From Alphaproteobacteria bacterium (GTDB lineage: Bacteria > Pseudomonadota > Alphaproteobacteria > 16-39-46 > JABJFC01): 38,926 bases of DNA. Shown here one piece after another: positions 4,893 to 38,171 of the stretch (position 1 is the first letter of the stretch; every line of letters starts with the position of its first letter). The stretch spans positions 1-38,926 of the forward strand of contig JABJFC010000080.1 in assembly GCA_018662925.1 (NCBI GenBank). The letters run 5' to 3'. The notes under the pieces are model-generated. The model was not told the DNA's origin. It was given only the letters and a program-made list of their open reading frames with translations, and ran no database searches. Made by a program: the position numbers and the translations under genes.

Positions 4893-7265
4893 ATGAAAGT
4901 AGTTGTCGTTGAGTCCCCTTCTAAAGCCAAGACCCTTAATAAGTATTTGGGTAGTGACTATAAAGTACTGGCCAGTTATGGACATGTGAGAGATCTACCC
5001 TCCAAGGACGGATCTGTTAATCCTGAGGATAATTTCTCTATGAACTGGGAAGTTTCCAAGGGATCTGACAAACATATTAAAGATATTGCCACTGCGACAA
5101 AGGGTGCCGATGCATTGTACCTGGCCACTGATCCGGATCGCGAAGGAGAGGCTATTTCATGGCATGTTAAAGAGCTGCTTGAGAAGAAGAAACTTTTAAA
5201 GGGAATTGAGGTTAAGCGCATCGTCTTTAACGAAGTGACAAAACGAGCCGTGCTGGAAGCCTTTGATCATCCAAGAGAACTGGATGAAGATTTGGTTCAA
5301 GCCTATTTGGCTCGGCGCGCTCTAGATTATCTGGTGGGTTTCAGTGTTTCCCCTGTTTTGTGGCGTAAGTTGCCAGGAAGTCGCTCTGCTGGCCGTGTCC
5401 AGTCTGTGGCGCTCCGATTGGTGACTGTGCGGGAAAGTGAGATAGAGGCCTTTAATCCTCAAGAATACTGGACCATTGAAGCGAACTTTTTGACCCCTTC
5501 AGACAAGCCCTTTAAGGCCCAGCTTACCCACTTGAATGGGAAGAAGCTTAAGAAGTTTGATCTCGGGATTGAAGCTGCCGCCAAAGAAGCCGTTCAGCAA
5601 ATCAACAAATTTGATACCTACACCGTTTCTAAAGTTGAGAAAAAGCAAGTACAGCGGAATCCATCGGCGCCGTTTACGACGTCAACGTTGCAACAGGAAG
5701 CTTCTCGAAAGCTGGGATTTGGTGCCTCCATGACCATGAGGACGGCACAAAAGCTTTATGAGGGTATGGATCTGCAAGGGGAAACCGTCGGTCTTATCAC
5801 CTATATGCGTACGGATAGTGTCCAGATGGCGAGTGAGGCGATTCAGTCTTGTCGGTCCGTAATAGAGCAAACATACGGAAAGAATTATGTTTCTCCGTCC
5901 CAGAGGGTTTATAAGACGAAGGCTAAAAACGCCCAGGAAGCCCATGAAGCCATCAGACCTACCGATTTGAGTCGGACACCTGAACAGCTGAAGTCTTATT
6001 TGGACGCTAGTCAGCTGAAGCTGTACACTCTCGTGTGGCGTCGTGCGATCTCTAGTCAAATGGCAAGTGCCGTAGTGGATCAAGTTGGCGTAGACATGGT
6101 CGCCTCTGATCAAAGCGTTCAATTTCGTACGACGGGTTCTACCATCACTTTTGACGGCTTTTTAAAAGTTTATGAAGAAGGAAAAGATGATTCCGAAGCT
6201 TCCGATGACGAGAAGAACAGAAAATTGCCTCCTTTGCATGAAAAAGATACTCTTCAGAAGAAAGAAGTAAGCCCGCTCCAGCACTTTACCCAGCCCCCTC
6301 CTCGCTATTCAGAAGCAAGCCTGGTTAAAAAGTTGGAAGAGTTGGGTATTGGACGCCCCTCCACTTATGCCTCTATTATTTCGGTGCTTCAGGATCGTGG
6401 GTATGTCCGCTTGGAGAAAAAGCGCTTCTTCCCTGAAGACAGAGGGCGCATTGTTACGACCTTTTTAGAGAACTTCTTTGAGCGCTATGTTCAGTATTCT
6501 TTTACAGCGGATTTGGAAGATCAGTTGGATGAGATTTCCGGGGGGCGCTTGGACTGGAAGAAAGTCCTCGATGAATTTTGGATCAAGTTAAAGGAAAATA
6601 TCGAAACCGCCAGTGAACTGAGAATCACTCAAGTTATCGAAATTCTTAATGAAGCCCTTGCTACTCTTCTGTTCCCGCCAAGGGCAGACGGTAAAGATCC
6701 CAAGAAATGTCCAGATTGTAATGAAGGGGATCTTTCCTTAAAGCTGGGTAAGTTTGGCGCATTTATTGGGTGCTCAAATTATCCGGAGTGCCGTTTTACG
6801 CGTCGGCTTAAACAATCTGGCGAAAAAGAGGAAACGGAAGAAGAAATACAAGCAAGCTCCGATTTCCCCAAAGAGCTAGGAATTGATCCCACTACAAAAC
6901 TTGCTATCACCATTCGCAAGGGGCCCTACGGTCTCTATCTTCAATTGGGTGAGCCCGAAGGCAAAAGTAAGCCTAAGCGAGCACCGATTCCAAGAGGCTA
7001 TAAGGCCGAGACCCTCAATCTTACGGATGCAACTTCCTTACTCTCTCTTCCCCGCGATGTGGGTATTCATCCTGATTCAGGAGAGCCTATCACAGCAGGC
7101 ATTGGCCGCTTTGGACCGTACTTAAAATATGAAAACAAGTTTGTATCCCTTCCAAAAGATGATGATGTTCTCACTGTTGATGTAGAGCGTGCTGTCGTGG
7201 TGATTGCTGAGGCCAAAGAAAAAGCCAAAACAAAGGGAAAAAAAGGCTTTAAAAAGAAAGCGTAA
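4893..7265 (+). CDS. topA: DNA topoisomerase I (type IA)
   Basis: Relaxes negatively supercoiled DNA by single-strand cleavage. The TOPRIM domain starts at MKVVVVESPSKAKTLNKYLG and carries the metal-binding DPDREGEA (about 80-87). The active-site tyrosine is Y304 in GLITYMRTDSVQ. One four-cysteine zinc module is visible near residues 605-640 (CPDC and CSNYPEC). It is followed by two alphaproteobacterial-type C-terminal repeats, each containing GPYGLYLQ or GRFGPYLKYE, and a Lys-rich tail (KAKTKGKKGFKKKA). The 790-aa length fits. Its TAA stop is followed directly by rnr in the same frame. Confidence 0.95.
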   Translation: MKVVVVESPSKAKTLNKYLGSDYKVLASYGHVRDLPSKDGSVNPEDNFSMNWEVSKGSDKHIKDIATATKGADALYLATDPDREGEAISWHVKELLEKKKLLKGIEVKRIVFNEVTKRAVLEAFDHPRELDEDLVQAYLARRALDYLVGFSVSPVLWRKLPGSRSAGRVQSVALRLVTVRESEIEAFNPQEYWTIEANFLTPSDKPFKAQLTHLNGKKLKKFDLGIEAAAKEAVQQINKFDTYTVSKVEKKQVQRNPSAPFTTSTLQQEASRKLGFGASMTMRTAQKLYEGMDLQGETVGLITYMRTDSVQMASEAIQSCRSVIEQTYGKNYVSPSQRVYKTKAKNAQEAHEAIRPTDLSRTPEQLKSYLDASQLKLYTLVWRRAISSQMASAVVDQVGVDMVASDQSVQFRTTGSTITFDGFLKVYEEGKDDSEASDDEKNRKLPPLHEKDTLQKKEVSPLQHFTQPPPRYSEASLVKKLEELGIGRPSTYASIISVLQDRGYVRLEKKRFFPEDRGRIVTTFLENFFERYVQYSFTADLEDQLDEISGGRLDWKKVLDEFWIKLKENIETASELRITQVIEILNEALATLLFPPRADGKDPKKCPDCNEGDLSLKLGKFGAFIGCSNYPECRFTRRLKQSGEKEETEEEIQASSDFPKELGIDPTTKLAITIRKGPYGLYLQLGEPEGKSKPKRAPIPRGYKAETLNLTDATSLLSLPRDVGIHPDSGEPITAGIGRFGPYLKYENKFVSLPKDDDVLTVDVERAVVVIAEAKEKAKTKGKKGFKKKA

Positions 7266-7268
7266 GGA

Positions 7269-9506
7269 TTGCAAAAAAAGACACCTTTCCCAACGAAGCA
7301 AGAAATACTCGATTATGTCCGAGATAACCCTGATGCTGCCAGCAAGAGAGACATTGCCAAGGCCTTTCAAATAAAAGGCTCTGGCCGAATTTCTCTGAAG
7401 GCGCTGCTCAAAGAAATGAAAGATGAAGGCCTCTTGAAAGGCAGCAAATGCCACCAACATGGCGGAAAAGGTAACCTTCCCTCTTTTGGCGTTGTGGACA
7501 TTATTTCCCTATCTCCGGATGGTGAAGCCATTGGTCGGGCTGTTCAAGAGATCGATGAGGAAAAACCCACGATCATTTACGTATATGCCAAGGGAAAAAC
7601 GGGAGAGACACCAGCCGTTGGGGATCGTGTTTTGGCACGACTTACACCTGAAGAAGATGAAACCTATAGGGGATGGGTGGTCAAAAAGCTAGAGCATACG
7701 CCTCGATATGTTGTGGGGCTGTTTAGGCTAACAGAAAAAGGGGGCATCATAAGCTCCATCGACCGGCGAAGTCGTCGCGACTACATTGTAGGCCCCAGTC
7801 ACTGTGGTGATGCAAAATCTGGGGATCTCGTACAAGCAAAGCTTATGCCCCGTCGTGGGGTTCAAATACCCTCTGTCCATATTTCAAAAAAATTGGGGCA
7901 CAAATCGGATCCCAAACTCATCAGCTTGATCGTTCTTCATTCATTGGAAATTCCCACAGATTTTTCTGATAAAGCCTTGGCTGAGGCTAAAAAGAACGAT
8001 GTTCCCTCTTTGGGAGACAGAGAAGACCTGCGCAATATTCCATTGGTAACAATTGACGGCGCCGATGCCAAAGACTTTGATGATGCGGTTTGGGCTGAAC
8101 CCGATCCGGATACTGAAGGTGGCTGGCATCTTATTGTGGCCATTGCTGATGTGGCTCACTATGTAAAAGCCCATGATGCCTTGGATCAAGATGCCTATGA
8201 GCGGGGAAACTCAGTCTATTTTCCTGATCGGGTAGTGCCTATGTTGCCCGAGGCTCTGTCAAATGGGACTTGTTCCCTAAAGCCCCACGAAGAGCGGGCA
8301 TGTTTGGCCGTACATCTGTGGATTGATGGTGGCGGCCAGCTGAAACGGTATAAATTTGTCCGTGGCCTTATGAAATCTCAGGCACGGCTTACCTATGATC
8401 ACGTACAGGCTATTTATGAAAAGAAGGCGTCTGATTCAAAAGTTGATCCCTTGTTGCACAATCTATTCGGGGCCTATGCCACTCTCAAGAAGGCGCGTGA
8501 AAAGCGCGGCACTCTTGATTTGAATGTGCCAGAGCGCAAAGTAACTTTTTCCGAATCCCATCATGTGGCAGAGATTGTTCCTGTTGAGCAAAATGACAGC
8601 AATCGTTTGATTGAAGAATTCATGATCCTGGCAAATGTGGCCTCGGCCCAAGCGCTCAAGAAGATGGGAAAGAATTTTCTCTATCGAGTCCATGACACGC
8701 CGGATCCTACAAAGCTGGAAGGATTGCTGACGGTCCTAAAAACCATGGGTTTTTCAGTAAGTCGCAGTGGTTTGATGCAGCCCCATCACTTCAACAACCT
8801 TTTACAAAAAACAGAATCCCACTCCCAAAAGAATATGATCAGCGATTTGGTGCTTAGAGTCCAATCCCAAGCTATCTATTCTCCAAAGAACATTGGCCAT
8901 TTTGGCTTGAGTCTTAAAGAATATACCCACTTTACCTCGCCTATCAGAAGATACAGCGATTTATTGGTTCATCGTGCTCTCATCTCGGCTTTTGGCCTAG
9001 GGGATGGGGGGCTTGAAGAGCCAGATGCTCATGATTGGTTCGAAATCGGAGAGCATCTAGTGATTACCGAACGCCGTGCTATGAAGGCTGAGCGCGAGTC
9101 TTTGGAGCGTTACATTATCTCTTACATGGAAGATCATGTGGATGCCATCTTTAAGGGTCGCATAGCGGGTGTCAATCGCCATGGTCTCTTTATCCAGCTA
9201 AATGAGACCGGCGCAAACGGATTTATCCCCTGCTCTGCCCTTACCTCCGATTACTATACTTTCCACAGCCATATTCATGCCCTCATTGGCCGACATGGCA
9301 ACGTGTATGCCCTAGGAGATGCCGTGACGGTCCAATTAATTGAGGCTAACTCGCTGACCAACTCCCTTTTGTTCAAGCTGATCGATCACGAAGGGCACAT
9401 GAACAAAAATCAATTGCGAAAAGCAGGCCCAGCCCCTAGAACTGGGAAATCCTTTAAAGGAAAGAGCAAGACGGGCAAGAAAAAGCTTGGGAAAAAGCAG
9501 CGGTAA
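7269..9506 (+). CDS. rnr: Ribonuclease R (RNB-family 3'-5' exoribonuclease)
   Basis: A processive 3'-5' exoribonuclease that degrades structured RNA. The order is an N-terminal winged helix (TKQEILDYVRDNPDAASKRD), cold-shock OB folds, and the catalytic RNB domain with TIDGADAKDFDDAVWAEPD holding the metal-binding aspartates. An S1 domain follows (GRIAGVNRHGLFIQLNE), then a basic tail ending KTGKKKLGKKQR. The 745-aa length is normal. The start is TTG at 7269, the second codon after the topA stop and in the same frame. An AAGGA directly abuts it without normal spacing, so initiation is probably coupled to topA termination. The TTG start agrees with the family N-terminus (FPTKQEIL). Confidence 0.93.
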   Translation: MQKKTPFPTKQEILDYVRDNPDAASKRDIAKAFQIKGSGRISLKALLKEMKDEGLLKGSKCHQHGGKGNLPSFGVVDIISLSPDGEAIGRAVQEIDEEKPTIIYVYAKGKTGETPAVGDRVLARLTPEEDETYRGWVVKKLEHTPRYVVGLFRLTEKGGIISSIDRRSRRDYIVGPSHCGDAKSGDLVQAKLMPRRGVQIPSVHISKKLGHKSDPKLISLIVLHSLEIPTDFSDKALAEAKKNDVPSLGDREDLRNIPLVTIDGADAKDFDDAVWAEPDPDTEGGWHLIVAIADVAHYVKAHDALDQDAYERGNSVYFPDRVVPMLPEALSNGTCSLKPHEERACLAVHLWIDGGGQLKRYKFVRGLMKSQARLTYDHVQAIYEKKASDSKVDPLLHNLFGAYATLKKAREKRGTLDLNVPERKVTFSESHHVAEIVPVEQNDSNRLIEEFMILANVASAQALKKMGKNFLYRVHDTPDPTKLEGLLTVLKTMGFSVSRSGLMQPHHFNNLLQKTESHSQKNMISDLVLRVQSQAIYSPKNIGHFGLSLKEYTHFTSPIRRYSDLLVHRALISAFGLGDGGLEEPDAHDWFEIGEHLVITERRAMKAERESLERYIISYMEDHVDAIFKGRIAGVNRHGLFIQLNETGANGFIPCSALTSDYYTFHSHIHALIGRHGNVYALGDAVTVQLIEANSLTNSLLFKLIDHEGHMNKNQLRKAGPAPRTGKSFKGKSKTGKKKLGKKQR

Positions 9507-28454: not shown

Positions 28455-30137
28455 CTAATTATTGACAACATTGTCCTTATTTTGCTCAAAGGGGATAATA
28501 TTATTATCCTTCGCATTCTGAGAATCCATAAGAGATTCTAAATTTTGAATCGGAAACTTGAGTAAGTATGTTGTTCCATTATTCCATACGCCTTTAATCT
28601 CCAATGAGCCGCCCTGAAAAGAAGTAATCTTTCTTATTTGACTAATGGACAAAGAATCATCGAGGCGTCCTGTTGAATCTTTTAAGAAAGATTTCAGATC
28701 CTCTTCCGCAAAACCAAACCCTCTATCACTAATGTGTAGTTCAAAGATTTCTTCACTATTTTCCTTCGTTATTTGAGCTAAAATTTGCACCCTGCCATTT
28801 TCAGGGTTGGTTTTGAGAATCAAAGAGAAAAGGCTCAGTATTATGTGTTTTAAGCAGGATGGGTTTAGGTATAAAGGAGCCTGTATATCTATATCCTTTT
28901 GCACCGAAAAATTCTTTAAAAAGAACTCTTGGCTCTTAAGCGTAATACAATCATCGATAAGTGAATCTATATTCACATACGAAACATCAGAAGAGGAATA
29001 AAAAACCAAATGTGAGAGATTGGCCTTAATTTTATTGAGTGTTTCAACAGAGCTATTGCAAGGTTGATGCATTGATATGTTTTTAATAACAGAATCCACA
29101 TCCTTAGATATTTTTTGCGCGAAAGCCTCAAGATTTCTATTGATATCTGTGTGATGCTTCGTACGTTTTCTTTCCACAGAACGCACGAATGTAAAGAATT
29201 TAGCCTTGTATAAGTACAGAAAAAAGTAAAAAATGATCAAAGCTAAAAACAAAACAATCAAACTTGGGAATATTTTTTCTTTATACTGGTCGTTGTAGGC
29301 GCCAATGCTATAGCCAGACAGTAAAATAAAGGAACCATCTAAGATTATATCTTCTTTATAGACGTACCTATACCCCTTGAAATCAATAGGAGAAGAAAGA
29401 GAATGAGTATTGCTGGTTACAAGTTTTTTGGTTGGAAAGCTGATTAATCCAGAATTTTTAGAGTTTGAAAAATCTAAAAAAACCTTACCCTCCTGAGATA
29501 AAATCAAAACATTGGTTGTAAAATCATCTGAAAACCACAGCTTATGAATCAATTGTGGAATATTAAATCCAAATGACAATATACCTAAAAAGTTTGAATT
29601 CTCGTCTCTAATGCCATATCCACCTGGAATAATCCAGTTCCCGCTTGGAATTCCGTAATCCGGTGTAGAGAGAAAGAGCTTCCCTGGCGTTTTTCTACAG
29701 TTTTCTAAGTAACCTCTCTTTTTATGTCTGGAAATTGGGACTTTATAAACACCTATTTCGCTATTTCCATAGGCCCGCCCGTCCATGCCTATCCAATCAA
29801 GGGACGTCCAAGATAGGACATGGTGAAAAACTTCAAACAAGGATAACTTTTGAAGTATTTGTTTAAGAGGCGAGTCACTTATAATTTGATCGTCTAATGA
29901 ATTGAGAGCTTCTTCCGTTTCTTTAAAAGTTTCAGTTAACCTTTCTTTAATGATAATAGCACCACTTTTGGACGCCTTTTCCATTTCCAAAGAAACTGTC
30001 TTCTGTGTATGATACAACTCAAATATTACTAAAAATAGAACGAGGACAAGAACCGAAATGTTAAGAACAATGTAGGACTTTGATCTTGCACCTGAGAATT
30101 TTCGGAAGTTAAAGAGCTTCGTTAACATATTTGTCAA
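28455..30137 (-). CDS. Degenerate membrane sensor histidine-kinase-like protein
   Basis: The 560-aa protein has the layout of a membrane sensor kinase: TM1 (about 22-42), a large extracytoplasmic PDC/Cache-like sensor (43-288), TM2 (289-311), a helical dimerisation region (about 325-395) and a GHKL ATPase-like domain (about 420-530) with DRGFG (471-475), FQGGSLEI and GTTYLLKF. Two key sites are lost. Where the H-box HExR is expected it reads KISKDVDSV, with K345 in place of the phospho-acceptor His. The N-box reads HIILSLFSLILK without its asparagines. It probably senses or binds rather than phosphorylates. The frame opens at TTG 30137; ATG 30128 with GGAG upstream may be the real start. It overlaps the XRE gene by up to 29 bases, so the two form one unit. 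Confidence 0.7.
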   Translation of the reverse strand: MTNMLTKLFNFRKFSGARSKSYIVLNISVLVLVLFLVIFELYHTQKTVSLEMEKASKSGAIIIKERLTETFKETEEALNSLDDQIISDSPLKQILQKLSLFEVFHHVLSWTSLDWIGMDGRAYGNSEIGVYKVPISRHKKRGYLENCRKTPGKLFLSTPDYGIPSGNWIIPGGYGIRDENSNFLGILSFGFNIPQLIHKLWFSDDFTTNVLILSQEGKVFLDFSNSKNSGLISFPTKKLVTSNTHSLSSPIDFKGYRYVYKEDIILDGSFILLSGYSIGAYNDQYKEKIFPSLIVLFLALIIFYFFLYLYKAKFFTFVRSVERKRTKHHTDINRNLEAFAQKISKDVDSVIKNISMHQPCNSSVETLNKIKANLSHLVFYSSSDVSYVNIDSLIDDCITLKSQEFFLKNFSVQKDIDIQAPLYLNPSCLKHIILSLFSLILKTNPENGRVQILAQITKENSEEIFELHISDRGFGFAEEDLKSFLKDSTGRLDDSLSISQIRKITSFQGGSLEIKGVWNNGTTYLLKFPIQNLESLMDSQNAKDNNIIPFEQNKDNVVNN

Positions 30138-30534
30138 TTCTCCAGGATAAGAAGTTATTATTTACAGTTTTTGATTTATCTCGGATTGTGTAGTCATAAA
30201 TTTCATCAACTAAAATGAAAAAAACCTTCTCGGATAAAGTGACTCCAATTTTTGATAGATATTTTGAAGACTTTGTCAAAACCTGAATGTATAAATTGCA
30301 ATTCCAATCACTTTCAGAAGAAGATTTAGAAGAGGCTTTGTTTTCTACCAAATCGTCTATTGTACAGCCTAATGCTTTCGCTATTGAATGAACAATCTGA
30401 ATGGTAGGGTTTTTAGAGCTTCCATTAATAATATTTTTCACAGCACTTGGTTTTAGACCCGCTTTTCTTTCTAGGTCTCTCACCGTCATGCTGTTCTCGT
30501 CTATATGGCTTTTAATCTTTTGTCTTACAATCAT
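30109..30534 (-). CDS. XRE-family helix-turn-helix regulator
   Basis: A 141-aa DNA-binding protein. The N-terminal Cro/CI-type HTH (about 1-66) reads IKSHIDENSMTVRDLERKAG, LKPSAVKNIINGSSKNPT and IVHSIAKALGCTIDDLVENK, the usual five-helix XRE fold. The C-terminal half (about 80-141, YIQVLTKSSKYLSKIGVTLS and onward) is unrecognised and may bind a partner. It is translated just before, and overlaps, the kinase-like gene, and is divergent from the LuxR-type gene. The palindrome in that intergenic region (30582-30599) is its most likely operator. Confidence 0.82.
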   Translation of the reverse strand: MIVRQKIKSHIDENSMTVRDLERKAGLKPSAVKNIINGSSKNPTIQIVHSIAKALGCTIDDLVENKASSKSSSESDWNCNLYIQVLTKSSKYLSKIGVTLSEKVFFILVDEIYDYTIRDKSKTVNNNFLSWRIDKYVNEAL

Positions 30535-30604: not shown

Positions 30605-30713
30605 CCCCTGTAACGACAATCATAAGCAGGATGCTAACTAGAAACTTGGTCATTTGCAACAGATAATTTTATCTAAGCAAGCGGCTGCAAAAACTGTAAG
30701 TTACGAGGGTGTT

Positions 30714-31019
30714 ATGGATAAAGGTGAGACATCATCATCTGAAAAAAAAGGCAACAGGTACTATCTGAAAAACCAGTTCAATTCGTCATACTTAACCAAG
30801 CGTGAGGTAGAATGTTTGCAGCATTTAGCAACGGGGAAAATTGTTAAAGAAGTCGCTCAATCATTGAATCTTTCGCCTAGAACCGTGGATTTTTATCTGA
30901 AAAATATTAAAGAAAAAACGGGATGTCGCAGCAAATCCCAGCTAATTTCTCTGTATTTTGGCAACGTGGCTCGATGGAATGACTTCTTACCAGCTCCGGA
31001 CATTCTTGTGGCCGTCTAA
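30714..31019 (+). CDS. Stand-alone LuxR/GerE-type helix-turn-helix protein
   Basis: A short DNA-binding protein (101 aa from ATG 30714) consisting almost only of a LuxR-type HTH: LTKREVECLQHLATGKIVKE followed by VAQSLNLSPRTVDFYLKNIK and EKTGCRSKSQLISLYF. It has no receiver or autoinducer domain, so its activity must be set by amount or by partners. The frame also has an upstream TTG at 30654 that would add 20 residues, but GAGGG at 30705-30709 sits just before ATG 30714, so I chose that start. A near-consensus promoter lies about 110 bases upstream. Confidence 0.8.
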   Translation: MDKGETSSSEKKGNRYYLKNQFNSSYLTKREVECLQHLATGKIVKEVAQSLNLSPRTVDFYLKNIKEKTGCRSKSQLISLYFGNVARWNDFLPAPDILVAV

Positions 31020-32727: not shown

Positions 32728-33027
32728 TTAATTTTCTAAATGAATTTTTTTTTGATACAAGTCATATACTCCTTTTCGATGCGCCACTTCGACAACTAAA
32801 ACAATCAATTGTCGGTCCTGAATATCACAGACAATCCTGTAGTCGCCAACTCTATAGCCCCAAAAGCTTTTCAGGCCTTCTGTAAGAGCTTTCCCCAATC
32901 CCCTTGGATCAGAATGTGAGATCAATCTCTCATTCAAAAACTTCTGAATTCTTTTTTGTGTTATACGATCAAGTTTTTTGAAAGATTGTTGTGCGGGTTC
33001 TGAAAAATCAATCTTCCAGCGGAGCAT
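32728..33027 (-). CDS. RelE/ParE-superfamily toxin
   Basis: A 99-aa toxin of the RelE fold, probably a ribosome-dependent mRNA endonuclease. Family features are FSEPAQQSFKKLDRITQKRI, ISHSDPRGLGKALTEGLKSF and the C-terminal strand WGYRVGDYRIVCDIQDRQLI, then LVVEVAHRKGVY. The Arg, His and Tyr positions typical of RelE (YRIV, HRKGVY) are present, so it is likely active. Its start overlaps the antitoxin gene end by 20 bases, the usual coupling. Confidence 0.88.
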   Translation of the reverse strand: MLRWKIDFSEPAQQSFKKLDRITQKRIQKFLNERLISHSDPRGLGKALTEGLKSFWGYRVGDYRIVCDIQDRQLIVLVVEVAHRKGVYDLYQKKIHLEN

Positions 33028-33250
33028 CTTTTGAAAGGCCCAACTCTTCTTGTATTCTTTCCCAAGAAATCGTTTTTTTTCCTTTTTTTAAGTATTCTTC
33101 ATACTGTGATATAGCTCGTTGATAAAGAGCTTGATCTTCTAAATACTCTCCTAGGGCTTCTTTAACGAAAAAACTTTTAGGCATCTTCGTTTGTTCTGCA
33201 AGCTTTTCAAGCTTGTTCTCTAGTTCCGCAGATATACGTATCCCTAACAT
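33008..33250 (-). CDS. Ribbon-helix-helix antitoxin of the RelE-type toxin
   Basis: An 80-aa RHH (RelB/CopG-like) antitoxin. The N-terminus MLGIRISAELENKLEKLAEQ followed by TKMPKSFFVKEALGEYLEDQ is the DNA-binding ribbon-helix-helix. The acidic C-terminal half (ISWERIQEELGLSKDAPLED) should wrap the toxin. It is translated just before, and overlaps, the toxin gene. Confidence 0.88.
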   Translation of the reverse strand: MLGIRISAELENKLEKLAEQTKMPKSFFVKEALGEYLEDQALYQRAISQYEEYLKKGKKTISWERIQEELGLSKDAPLED

Positions 33251-35016: not shown

Positions 35017-37833
35017 ATGTCTGACGAAACAAAGGAAATTTCTAACGATCTCTTCTTAAAACATTTTGAAACCATAGACGGTATAAAATTTACACGTCGT
35101 CAAATTGACGTCATTTCATGTATTGTAAGTGGCTGGAATGTTAAATCCATTGCACGGATCCTTTCTATTTCTCCCAATACAGTTGAAACCCATATATATA
35201 CAATTAGTCAAAAACTAGGTTATGGAGGACGCGACTATATAGTTAGGTTTATAGAAAAGTCTGGAAAGGACTTCTACATTAAGCAGCACTATTTGAAACT
35301 AACAAGAGGAGAAGAACATTTAGAAACTAAAGCTTCAATGGATCTTTCAGAGTTTTCTTCTTTTACGAATTTTGTGAGAAAATTTCTAAGAGTCCCTAAA
35401 TTAAGATTTTTTTTGTTTTCTATACTTATCTTAGGTGTTCTTTACACTATTTTTTCCCCACTCATGAGGGGGATGTTTTTTGCTCAATCCGTACAGATAT
35501 CGTCATTTTGGGATAGATTTTTTCCTTCTGTGAAAAGATCAGCACAAGATGGATCAAAGCTAACCAGAACTAATATCCCTACTTTTCAAATAGATGAATT
35601 TTCAGGCCGACAGGATGAATTAGAAAAGATCTCTTCATTTTTAAGCAAAACGCGGCATGTAAATATCTTTGGAATTTCAGGAATAGGTAAAACCAGGTTA
35701 GCGTACGCCTATGGCGTTAAAAAACTTCAAAAAGGCATGTTTGTTTGGAGTTTTGATATGCAAAAAGGGCTAAGATCGCAAATTTATAATCTAGCCAAAA
35801 TTCTTATTTCTGAAGAATTAGTAAGTAGCAAAAATATATTTATCAGTGAAAACGAAACATGGATTCTTAAAAAAATTCTAAGTACAATCGTAAATCACTA
35901 TGATGAAGTGTACTTCATTTTGGATGATATGATCGCAAATGAACATAATATGGAACTCATAAAAACAAGACTTGCGACCGAAAAAGTTTATATCATAACC
36001 ACAAGTAAGAAAAAAATAGATTGGGAATCATCTGTATTTGTTGGACCATTAACCAAAGAATCATCCAAAAATTATTTGCAAGCAAATCTGAATAATTATA
36101 ACAAGCACGATGTCATTAAGCTTGTAGAAAGACTGAAAGGATTCCCAATAGCTTTAAAACAAACTGTGGGGTTTTTAAATAATACTAATTTGATTACTAT
36201 ACAAGATTACCTTAAAAAAACAGATGTTGAATATAAAGAAGAGATATCAAATGAAACCTTCTGGACAGATTCCTTTGCTTTAAGTGAAGCCGCTGAAAAA
36301 GCCTTATATATAACTGTGAAAAGCCTTCGGGAAGAATCTAAATCTGCAAGTCTTTTATTAGAATTCCTCTCTGAACTATATAACAAAAATATACCGATCC
36401 AATATGTATATTACTTTGCAAAAGAGAAAGGGATTAAAAATATAGATGCGGCACTTCTTACATTGGAAAATTATGGTTTGATTCATGTAATTCCTAATAG
36501 GACAAGTACTGTTGATAAGTCTATTAATATACATGATTTCGTTAAGGATTATATTTCATCAAAAACAATTTCGAGCAAAAGAAAAGACCATCAAAAAATA
36601 ATAGCAAGTTATATTCAGAGTATTTTTAAAGAGATCCCTTTTAAGAAAAGGCTCTCATTTATGATAAATAATCCTACCCATATGCACCATATCGAAGAAA
36701 TCCTTGCATCACAAAATGGAACTTCTCCAATACTGCCCCCTGAAATACTCTTCCACTTAAAGCTTTTACTGTTGGAACACAAAATTTTTATTGAGAGAAA
36801 CTATCAAAAATCCACTAAAATTATCAAAGATATTAAACCCTTTGTTGAGAAATATAATTTAAATAAAGAAAGTATTATTAATTTTTATATCTTTGAGAGT
36901 CATCTATATCCTTATAACTATGTAGAGAAATCTGAATTAAACAAACAAATAACAAAATTATCAAATGTTTTAGGCACACTAAAAACGACAGATAAATATG
37001 GGGATCAGAGGCTGATTGTAAACTGCCTCATAGCACAAGTATATTTGTACACAGGCGATATGGAAAAGGTTAACAAATACCTTATCAAGGCATCTAAACT
37101 CATCGATAATGACACCTCTAATAGATCTAAACTAACATATTATTATTTTAAAACTTGGTATAGCTACGATTCTGGCAAGTTTGAAGATGCCATATTGTTT
37201 GCAAAGAAAGGAATAAAAGTTGGAGAGAAGGCCGGAGCCGAAGGGGACCTCCATGCTTTGTTATTCATTTATGATATATATTCAATGGCTCTTTGTCGAA
37301 CCGGAAAGTATAAGTTAGCAAGAGAAATTGCTGAAAAATGTCTAAATCTGTGTCGGGATTATTTTCCCAATACTAATAACGATAACTATGCAGAAGCATT
37401 GTATGCCGCTGCTTTAGCAGAGTATAAATTGAAAAACTATCATTCTGCAAAAGAATTGGTAGAAGAATCTATATCTGTCTATAATAGATTTAATAAAGGT
37501 TATCCTTTATCAAGGGAGATTGCAGAACTAAAAATTATTTATGGAGATATCTTTTTTAAACTTAATGAACCAGAAAAGGCTGAGGAAAGCTATGATTCTA
37601 GCATAGAAATATACAAGAAGGTTCTAAGCAATGATAGTTCGGATTATTACTCTGCGATCTACTATAAGTATTTTAAATTATTTTTGTACATGTCTAATTA
37701 CTCTAAAGCAGAACATTACTATAAGCTTCTTAAGGAGATTCAACCAGCGGAAAGTCCCCTCTTAAAGGCTGCAAAAGAGAAATGGCGACTAGCAAATTAC
37801 GAAATAAATCGAAAACTCTCAAAAACCTTATAA
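35017..37833 (+). CDS. LuxR-HTH, transmembrane, NB-ARC/STAND NTPase, TPR regulator-like protein
   Basis: A 938-aa multidomain protein without a family name I know. Residues 25-80 form a LuxR-type HTH (FTRRQIDVISCIVSGWNVKS, IARILSISPNTVETHIYTIS). A strong hydrophobic helix at 131-150 (FFLFSILILGVLYTIFSPLM) follows a very basic stretch (RKFLRVPKLR). Then comes an NB-ARC-like NTPase: P-loop GISGIGKT (219-226), Walker B VYFILDD (298-304), VYIITTS (324-330) and GFPIAL (375-380). The C-terminal third (about 600-925) has some six TPR-like helical pairs, for example YYFKTWYSYDSGKFEDAILF. In MalT-like STAND regulators the HTH is C-terminal and there is no membrane helix, so this order is reversed and anchored. 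The gene is markedly AT-rich. Confidence 0.8.
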   Translation: MSDETKEISNDLFLKHFETIDGIKFTRRQIDVISCIVSGWNVKSIARILSISPNTVETHIYTISQKLGYGGRDYIVRFIEKSGKDFYIKQHYLKLTRGEEHLETKASMDLSEFSSFTNFVRKFLRVPKLRFFLFSILILGVLYTIFSPLMRGMFFAQSVQISSFWDRFFPSVKRSAQDGSKLTRTNIPTFQIDEFSGRQDELEKISSFLSKTRHVNIFGISGIGKTRLAYAYGVKKLQKGMFVWSFDMQKGLRSQIYNLAKILISEELVSSKNIFISENETWILKKILSTIVNHYDEVYFILDDMIANEHNMELIKTRLATEKVYIITTSKKKIDWESSVFVGPLTKESSKNYLQANLNNYNKHDVIKLVERLKGFPIALKQTVGFLNNTNLITIQDYLKKTDVEYKEEISNETFWTDSFALSEAAEKALYITVKSLREESKSASLLLEFLSELYNKNIPIQYVYYFAKEKGIKNIDAALLTLENYGLIHVIPNRTSTVDKSINIHDFVKDYISSKTISSKRKDHQKIIASYIQSIFKEIPFKKRLSFMINNPTHMHHIEEILASQNGTSPILPPEILFHLKLLLLEHKIFIERNYQKSTKIIKDIKPFVEKYNLNKESIINFYIFESHLYPYNYVEKSELNKQITKLSNVLGTLKTTDKYGDQRLIVNCLIAQVYLYTGDMEKVNKYLIKASKLIDNDTSNRSKLTYYYFKTWYSYDSGKFEDAILFAKKGIKVGEKAGAEGDLHALLFIYDIYSMALCRTGKYKLAREIAEKCLNLCRDYFPNTNNDNYAEALYAAALAEYKLKNYHSAKELVEESISVYNRFNKGYPLSREIAELKIIYGDIFFKLNEPEKAEESYDSSIEIYKKVLSNDSSDYYSAIYYKYFKLFLYMSNYSKAEHYYKLLKEIQPAESPLLKAAKEKWRLANYEINRKLSKTL

Positions 37834-37892
37834 ACGCCTGCTCCTAAAGCTCACGCGGGACAAAGAATGCTACATTGCGGAAGTTGCTAGCA

Positions 37893-37955
37893 GTCCTCCT
37901 TCGCCAAGGCTTCGGCGGACACTACCTTTTCTAAACTCACTTCGTTCGTTAAGAA
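37893..37955. repeat. 63-bp direct repeat, copy 1, next to tRNA-Val
   Basis: It begins GTCCTCCTTCGCCAAGGCTT and ends TTCGTTCGTTAAGAA. An identical copy lies at 37981-38043, 88 bases downstream. The rest of the 37834-38051 gap is a 25-base spacer and short flanks, with no gene. Confidence 0.9.
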
Positions 37956-37980
37956 TTGAGAGACTCCGACTGTAGAGAAA

Positions 37981-38043
37981 GTCCTCCTTCGCCAAGGCTT
38001 CGGCGGACACTACCTTTTCTAAACTCACTTCGTTCGTTAAGAA
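37981..38043. repeat. 63-bp direct repeat, copy 2, next to tRNA-Val
   Basis: An identical second copy of 37893-37955. It ends 9 bases before the 3' end of the tRNA-Val gene. The reverse complement can be read as a Ser/Arg/Glu-rich peptide, which is the source of a false ORF running over the tRNA. Confidence 0.9.
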
Positions 38044-38051
38044 AAGGTTAG

Positions 38052-38126
38052 TGGTGGGCGATGAGGGATTCGAACCCCCGACCCTCTCGGTGTAAACGAG
38101 ACGCTCTCCCGCTGAGCTAATCGCCC
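38052..38126 (-). tRNA. tRNA-Val (anticodon UAC)
   Basis: On the minus strand the acceptor GGGCGAT pairs with ATCGCCC, the D arm is GCTC-AGCGGGA-GAGC, the anticodon stem TCTCG/CGAGA holds the loop TTTACAC with anticodon TAC, and the T arm is GGGGG-TTCGAAT-CCCTC. CCA is encoded. The length is 75 bases. It marks the right edge of the AT-rich region. Confidence 0.96.
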
Positions 38127-38143
38127 TCAACAGCTTGTGGCAC

Positions 38144-38171
38144 ATTATAGGGCTTCGTTTTCATTTGAAAA
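38144..38171 (-). promoter_or_regulatory. Promoter of tRNA-Val
   Basis: On the minus strand TTTTCA (38166-38171, 4 of 6) is followed by 16 bases and a perfect TATAAT (38144-38149), 17 bases before the tRNA 5' end. Confidence 0.6.

Follow-up and report, generated by a model that had tools for sequence, protein, structure and literature searches.

A predicted transmembrane regulator with a LuxR-type DNA-binding head and a putative extracytoplasmic STAND-TPR sensor in a TLC-encoding alphaproteobacterium

Because STAND switches depend on ATP, they are regarded as cytoplasmic proteins; MalT, Apaf-1, and the NLRs of plants and bacteria are examples. The MalT/LAL-type regulators are soluble, cytoplasmic proteins in which a STAND NTPase, a helical-repeat sensor, and a C-terminal LuxR-type helix-turn-helix (HTH) are joined in one chain, and switching between ADP and ATP is expected. 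The ToxR/CadC-type regulators consist of an N-terminal DNA-binding domain (an OmpR-type winged helix), a single transmembrane (TM) helix, and a C-terminal extracytoplasmic sensor, and are oriented N-in/C-out; in such single-TM regulators, clustering outside would join the DNA-binding heads inside. STAND proteins change from a closed ADP form to a multimerizing ATP form upon inducer binding (PMC6468293, PMC4381067).

The gene studied here (the query) lies in the window, which is the whole stretch of 38,926 nucleotides analyzed (contig JABJFC010000080.1), and its host genome is 1.83 Mb and 97% complete. Like the MalT/LAL-type regulators, the query combines a LuxR-type HTH, a STAND NTPase, and helical repeats, for which ADP/ATP switching would be expected; however, its HTH is N-terminal, a TM helix is predicted between the HTH and the NTPase, and the NTPase is predicted to be outside. 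The order of DNA-binding domain, single TM, and C-terminal sensor, as well as the N-in/C-out orientation judged by sequence, is that of the ToxR/CadC-type regulators, whereas the head is a LuxR/GerE HTH and the sensor part consists of a STAND NTPase and TPRs. Among the Pfam matches listed for the query, GerE was found and the OmpR-type winged helix (Trans_reg_C) was not. This architecture supports the proposal of the first-pass annotation, made from the letters of the window, that the protein is a hybrid of a ToxR/CadC-like HTH-TM part and a STAND-like NTPase-TPR part.

Domain composition of the query

The features of the query are given in Table 1. The domain content is confirmed and is far beyond chance. 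The LuxR HTH, the NB-ARC-like NTPase, and the TPR-like repeats of the first-pass annotation were all recovered, with the P-loop and Walker B at the residues it had named; further motif residues are P377 (GxP-like) and H506 (MHD-like). The GerE domain scored 46 bits, above the curated Pfam threshold of 23.5. The Pfam NB-ARC score of the query is 14.5 bits, under the cut-off of 23.5, whereas its close homologues scored 26 to 37 bits, above it. In 40 homologues with about 20% identity, P377, H506, and the P-loop residues do not vary. STAND/NB-ARC proteins are recognized by a set of motifs (Walker A, Walker B, GxP-like, MHD-like) in an NB-ARC fold, all of which were found; as judged from these motifs, the query encodes a complete NB-ARC/STAND nucleotide switch.

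Table 1. Features of the query gene and its predicted product (nucleotide positions in the window; residue numbers of the protein)
Feature	Position	Strand	Basis or remark
Whole ORF, HTH-TM-STAND-TPR regulator	35017..37833	+	938 aa, ATG start, 0 internal stops
LuxR/GerE helix-turn-helix, residues 25-77, predicted cytoplasmic	35089..35247	+	Pfam PF00196, E=4e-12
Basic flank RKFLRVPKLR, residues 121-130	35377..35406	+	Sequence; K/R count 5 before helix, 2 after
Single transmembrane helix (predicted), residues 131-149	35407..35463	+	KD 2.23; approximate dG -0.92 for 129-147
Juxtamembrane stretch, residues 150-190, not a second TM	35464..35586	+	dG >= +7; pLDDT <50 at 146-179
NB-ARC/STAND NTPase, including helical and winged-helix regions; residues 194-519, predicted to lie outside the inner membrane	35596..36573	+	Pfam, model, fold matches, tree
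P-loop GISGIGKT, residues 219-226	35671..35694	+	Invariant G219, G222, G224, K225
Walker B VYFILDD, residues 298-304	35908..35928	+	D303 invariant in alignment A1, nearly so in A4
MHD-like motif IHD, residues 505-507	36529..36537	+	H506 invariant
TPR-type helical repeat array, residues 519-937	36571..37827	+	Pfam TPR_12 (1.3e-18), TPR_2, TPR_10; helical hairpins in model

The AlphaFold model of the query (pLDDT 82.5, pTM 0.72) recovered a STAND-TPR fold, in which about 420 residues of TPR-type hairpins follow the NTPase. The best fold matches were the STAND-TPR protein PH0952 (6mfv, E=1.5e-14) and Apaf-1 (E=6.5e-10), both of which have neither a LuxR HTH nor a TM helix between head and NTPase; Rap-pheromone TPR structures were also among the matches. 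The best curated family match over the NTPase was the FxSxx-COOH system TPR protein (NCBIfam NF040586), with 84 bits for the query and 164 to 236 bits for other members of the family described below, all under the 300-bit cut-off, and this match spans the NTPase and not the HTH or the TM.

Around the query gene, 19 promoter-like matches (12.9 expected) and 4 terminator-like matches (1.7 expected) were counted; neither count enters the argument. Elsewhere on the contig, we noted a ParE-like toxin gene with a ribbon-helix-helix antitoxin gene (32728-33250, minus strand), a dCache sensor with a HATPase-like domain that overlaps a Cro/CI-type HTH gene (28455-30534, minus strand), and a stand-alone short LuxR/GerE HTH protein of 121 aa (30654-31019), 4 kb upstream of the query ORF. 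The ORF listed at 37870-38145 (minus strand) overlaps tRNA-Val (38052-38126) and is probably not a gene.

Membrane topology and relatives of the query

Residues 131-149 are the sole 19-mer of the query with a KD mean above 1.2. On an approximate biological-scale dG, which is our own approximation of the published hydrophobicity scale and not a dedicated predictor, the next best stretch anywhere in the query reached +5.2. A second weak helix, suggested in the first-pass annotation (at about 152-170) as a way to return the chain, was rejected (dG +7 to +10 for about 148-170). With one helix and no second one, the predicted topology is N-in/C-out, with the HTH inside and the NTPase outside the inner membrane; this prediction is well supported by sequence, and the lower K/R count after the helix (Table 1) refers to the 20 residues that follow it.

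The query is, on sequence evidence, a member of a large family of HTH, TM, NB-ARC, and TPR proteins in intracellular Alphaproteobacteria and some Gammaproteobacteria. Searching with the HTH yielded 136 confirmed places, and 80 loci from these were retained; the search used a closer set of HTHs, all 24 aligned together being too loose a probe. A contig search with the whole query as a probe gave no matches. The carriers include Paracaedibacter, Odyssella, Caedibacter, Rickettsiaceae, and several metagenome-assembled genomes (MAGs) labeled Gammaproteobacteria and Francisellaceae, and at least seven HTH-bearing paralogues occur in a single genome (G002). In the open-access literature searched, we found no paper describing the family, which is apparently undescribed so far. 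A Legionella-like Dot/Icm link was considered and rejected: a search of the carriers for DotI/IcmL, a marker of the T4BSS, was negative, and the named relatives are mostly symbionts of the Alphaproteobacteria, among which they also place the query's genome.

The order in nearly all members is HTH, a linker of about 180 residues, one TM, 45 to 88 residues (median 57 in the 76 HTH-TM-NTPase members), P-loop, and TPR. Among the homologues collected by HTH similarity alone, every long-enough ORF has one strong hydrophobic segment at that place. The P-loop is intact in 90 of the 93 ORFs of at least 700 aa, and the three exceptions are two proteins that have TPRs only and an ORF that is half of a broken gene. 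K/R residues are more frequent on the HTH side in 61 and less frequent in 6 of the 76 members, which were gathered by HTH similarity or query similarity, not by the TM, and were required to have a P-loop (p=5e-11, an optimistic value because the sequences are related). This moderate asymmetry across the family supports the placement of the NTPase outside, and agrees with the single-helix N-in topology expected in the first-pass annotation.

Several further members were also seen. A second member in the query's own genome (L193, G000:C82, NB-ARC at about 6.9-7.5 kb, minus strand) has a TIR-like linker, a TM, an NB-ARC with an intact P-loop, and a long C-terminal part, with no in-frame HTH. Reading frames of about 315 aa that contain a TM plus NB-ARC and no HTH adjoin full members in G002 (L029:1632-2573) and G001 (L032:5203-6153). 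A contig of a Flavobacteriales MAG (L157, JALEGO010000432.1) has a member whose TM sequence is identical to that of the alphaproteobacterial L156, and its 5.5-Mb genome is without TLC; thus, it is probably a misbinned contig.

The linker of one relative (L098) was modeled as a confident alpha/beta domain (model pLDDT 85), which matched TIR domains (RRS1, SARM1) and other flavodoxin-like folds with E of about 1e-3 to 1e-2; the match to the RRS1 TIR had a TM-score of 0.61 by target length (E=1.7e-3). Pfam did not recognize a TIR domain in the linkers of the relatives, and we call the domain of most relatives TIR-like, its identity as TIR not being proven. In the query, no TIR domain was found, and just about 50 aa separate the HTH from the TM. 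STAND NTPases are frequent in bacterial conflict systems (PMC7159879), and this, together with the TIR/flavodoxin-like domain between HTH and TM in most relatives, could indicate that the STAND protein belongs to a defense (anti-invader) system whose effector acts on membranes or is TIR-like. However, PADLOC gave weak generic matches and no specific defense-system model on the query, which is without the TIR-like domain and has its sensor predicted outside, and control of transcription is suggested by the conserved DNA-binding head and the large number of paralogues in each genome. An anti-invader role thus seems hardly probable at all.

About ten close homologues of the query NTPase-TPR (the best with E=2e-41 over 716 aa) are without the HTH and have a signal-peptide-like N-terminus directly before the NTPase (for example, LSPAVA|ST, LKAFA|TP, and NNIFA|QS). 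These calls are based on the look and position of the N-termini and not on a simple signal-peptide score, which was positive in 6 of 10 homologues against a background of 23% and separated them poorly. The same NTPase-TPR module thus occurs behind a Sec-type signal in some genes and behind an HTH-TM head in others, and both arrangements would put it outside the inner membrane. In the tree, the query NTPase is placed inside the signal-peptide clade (support 97.8) on a long branch, and its head (residues 11-118) shares 53% identity with that of L022, a member of the HTH-TM family. The query therefore looks like a fusion of the two kinds, an HTH-TM head and an NTPase-TPR of the signal-peptide clade. 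Another member, L085 (G331), is likewise compact and without the TIR-like domain; its NTPase falls in the HTH-TM clade, and thus the compact form probably arose twice. In the Rickettsia endosymbiont of an Omalisus beetle, both kinds of gene lie on the same strand, with a signal-peptide NB-ARC-TPR gene (L106:1869-4124) upstream of an HTH-linker-TM-NB-ARC-TPR gene (5950-9207), and a tandem pair of signal-peptide NB-ARC-TPR genes was seen in G242 (L075:2091-6500).

TLC translocases and NB-ARC proteins of other alphaproteobacteria

The periplasm is normally without ATP, and TLC nucleotide translocases are proteins of the inner membrane. Rickettsia Tlc1 takes up host ATP against ADP, and it is the only one of the five R. 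prowazekii TLC paralogues with ATP/ADP exchange (PMC5615194); thus, a TLC-family gene is no proof of ATP transport. The query's own genome has two TLC genes. For a translocase in the inner membrane to import host ATP as Tlc1 does, the nucleotide would have to reach the periplasmic face. For these TLC-encoding bacteria, the first-pass annotation was therefore probably wrong to assume a periplasm free of ATP.

Among 385 alphaproteobacterial genomes, a strong TLC was found in 16 of the 17 with a strong family match and in 28 of the 368 others (Fisher 8e-16), and at the family level in 10 of 10 carrier families versus 27 of about 173, a co-occurrence that may mark merely an intracellular life style. 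Most of the 28 TLC-positive genomes without the family do not exceed 1.3 Mb. A further set of carriers, reached by name and including gammaproteobacterial MAGs, had TLC in 22 of 24 cases. TLC was not detected in the carrier G306 (76% complete) or in the MAGs G391 and G409; the member in G391 is probably on a stray contig.

As a control, Pfam NB-ARC matches were taken from the same 385 genomes independently of similarity to the query. Upstream of the P-loop, a TM or export segment was found in none of 20 NB-ARC proteins from TLC-negative genomes and, by a fixed threshold, in 16 of 21 from TLC-positive genomes (p=2e-7). The five threshold misses comprise an ABC-type ATPase that is not NB-ARC, a protein whose signal peptide is obvious but lies slightly above the threshold, two proteins whose TM precedes the first ATG, and one with a TM in a frameshifted upstream stretch. 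After inspection, made once the result was known, the segment is effectively present in 20 of 20 real NB-ARC proteins of TLC-positive genomes, a set that holds paralogues and hence not 20 independent events. Several NB-ARC proteins of the TLC-negative genomes are TIR-NB-ARC proteins without a TM or export segment. Four of these soluble TIR-NB-ARC-TPR-like proteins (L173, L175, L176, and L179) resemble the family in their NB-ARC, intact P-loop, and TIR-like N-terminus, but have neither a TM or signal before the P-loop nor a LuxR HTH; they are a possible source of the family domains.

These comparisons bear on whether the NTPase might remain in the cytoplasm, where ATP is available, on a helix that is monotopic, re-entrant, or uninserted, so that the protein would be a membrane-tethered MalT-like regulator. 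A hydrophobic helix alone is no proof of crossing, and all STAND regulators characterized to our knowledge are cytoplasmic. However, the TM energy is strong and there is no second helix, the positive-inside bias is seen in 61 of 67 informative members, the same module stands behind signal-peptide-like N-termini, and such a segment is absent from the NB-ARC proteins of the TLC-negative alphaproteobacteria. We therefore consider a cytoplasmic NTPase decidedly improbable. As for the first-pass annotation, its hybrid reading and single-helix topology are supported, the returning helix is not predicted, the premise of an ATP-free periplasm is probably wrong here, and the anti-invader idea has no support; a re-entrant helix or proteolysis is unsupported and not needed, given that the charge signal recurs in 76 members and that the module is also found behind signal-peptide-like N-termini.

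Proposed mechanism and biological meaning

From the domains, the single TM, the charge bias, the exported-looking homologues, the intact nucleotide site, and the TLC genes of the genome, we infer, with a probability of about 0.6, that the query is a ToxR/CadC-like transmembrane one-component regulator with an extracytoplasmic STAND-TPR sensor charged by host-derived periplasmic ATP, in an ATP-importing intracellular alphaproteobacterium. In Sec export the chain is unfolded, and thus the NTPase would have to get its nucleotide outside. The chain would be exported unfolded, and the NTPase would fold and pick up nucleotide outside the inner membrane, where ATP would also be used. The resting form would be closed and ADP-bound. 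Binding of a ligand to the TPRs, together with a high enough level of host-derived periplasmic ATP, would open the switch, which would self-associate as STAND proteins do. Clustering outside would then bring the cytoplasmic HTHs together on the DNA of the target genes, as in ToxR/CadC. The signal could be the TPR-bound ligand, the ATP level itself, or both.

The charge bias and the signal-peptide-like homologues apply equally to a protein of the same topology whose extracytoplasmic NB-ARC does not switch with ATP, and is instead a scaffold, uses another nucleotide, or holds one permanently bound molecule, so that sensing of a protein or peptide ligand would fall to the TPR array alone. Ligands are usually bound by the TPR array, and the fold matches include TPR structures of the Rap-pheromone kind. 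However, conservation is highest at the P-loop, Walker B, P377, and H506, against a mean column identity of about 25-30%, and no member reaching the P-loop region has a broken P-loop; a scaffold would be expected to lose its nucleotide motifs, and their conservation thus makes a non-switching NB-ARC unlikely. We accordingly prefer the ATP-charged extracytoplasmic sensor.

More generally, we tentatively suggest that NLR/Apaf-like STAND switches were moved across the inner membrane in ATP-importing intracellular lineages, both as signal-peptide proteins and as HTH-TM regulators, and run there on host-derived nucleotide, serving as receptors outside the cytoplasm for host ATP and for ligands of host or microbial origin. 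The layout suggests that the carriers may sense host ATP or host molecules. If this is true, the periplasm of these symbionts would be an ATP-containing compartment used for signaling, and the family would be a candidate for host-cell sensing by Holosporales-type and Rickettsia-related symbionts.
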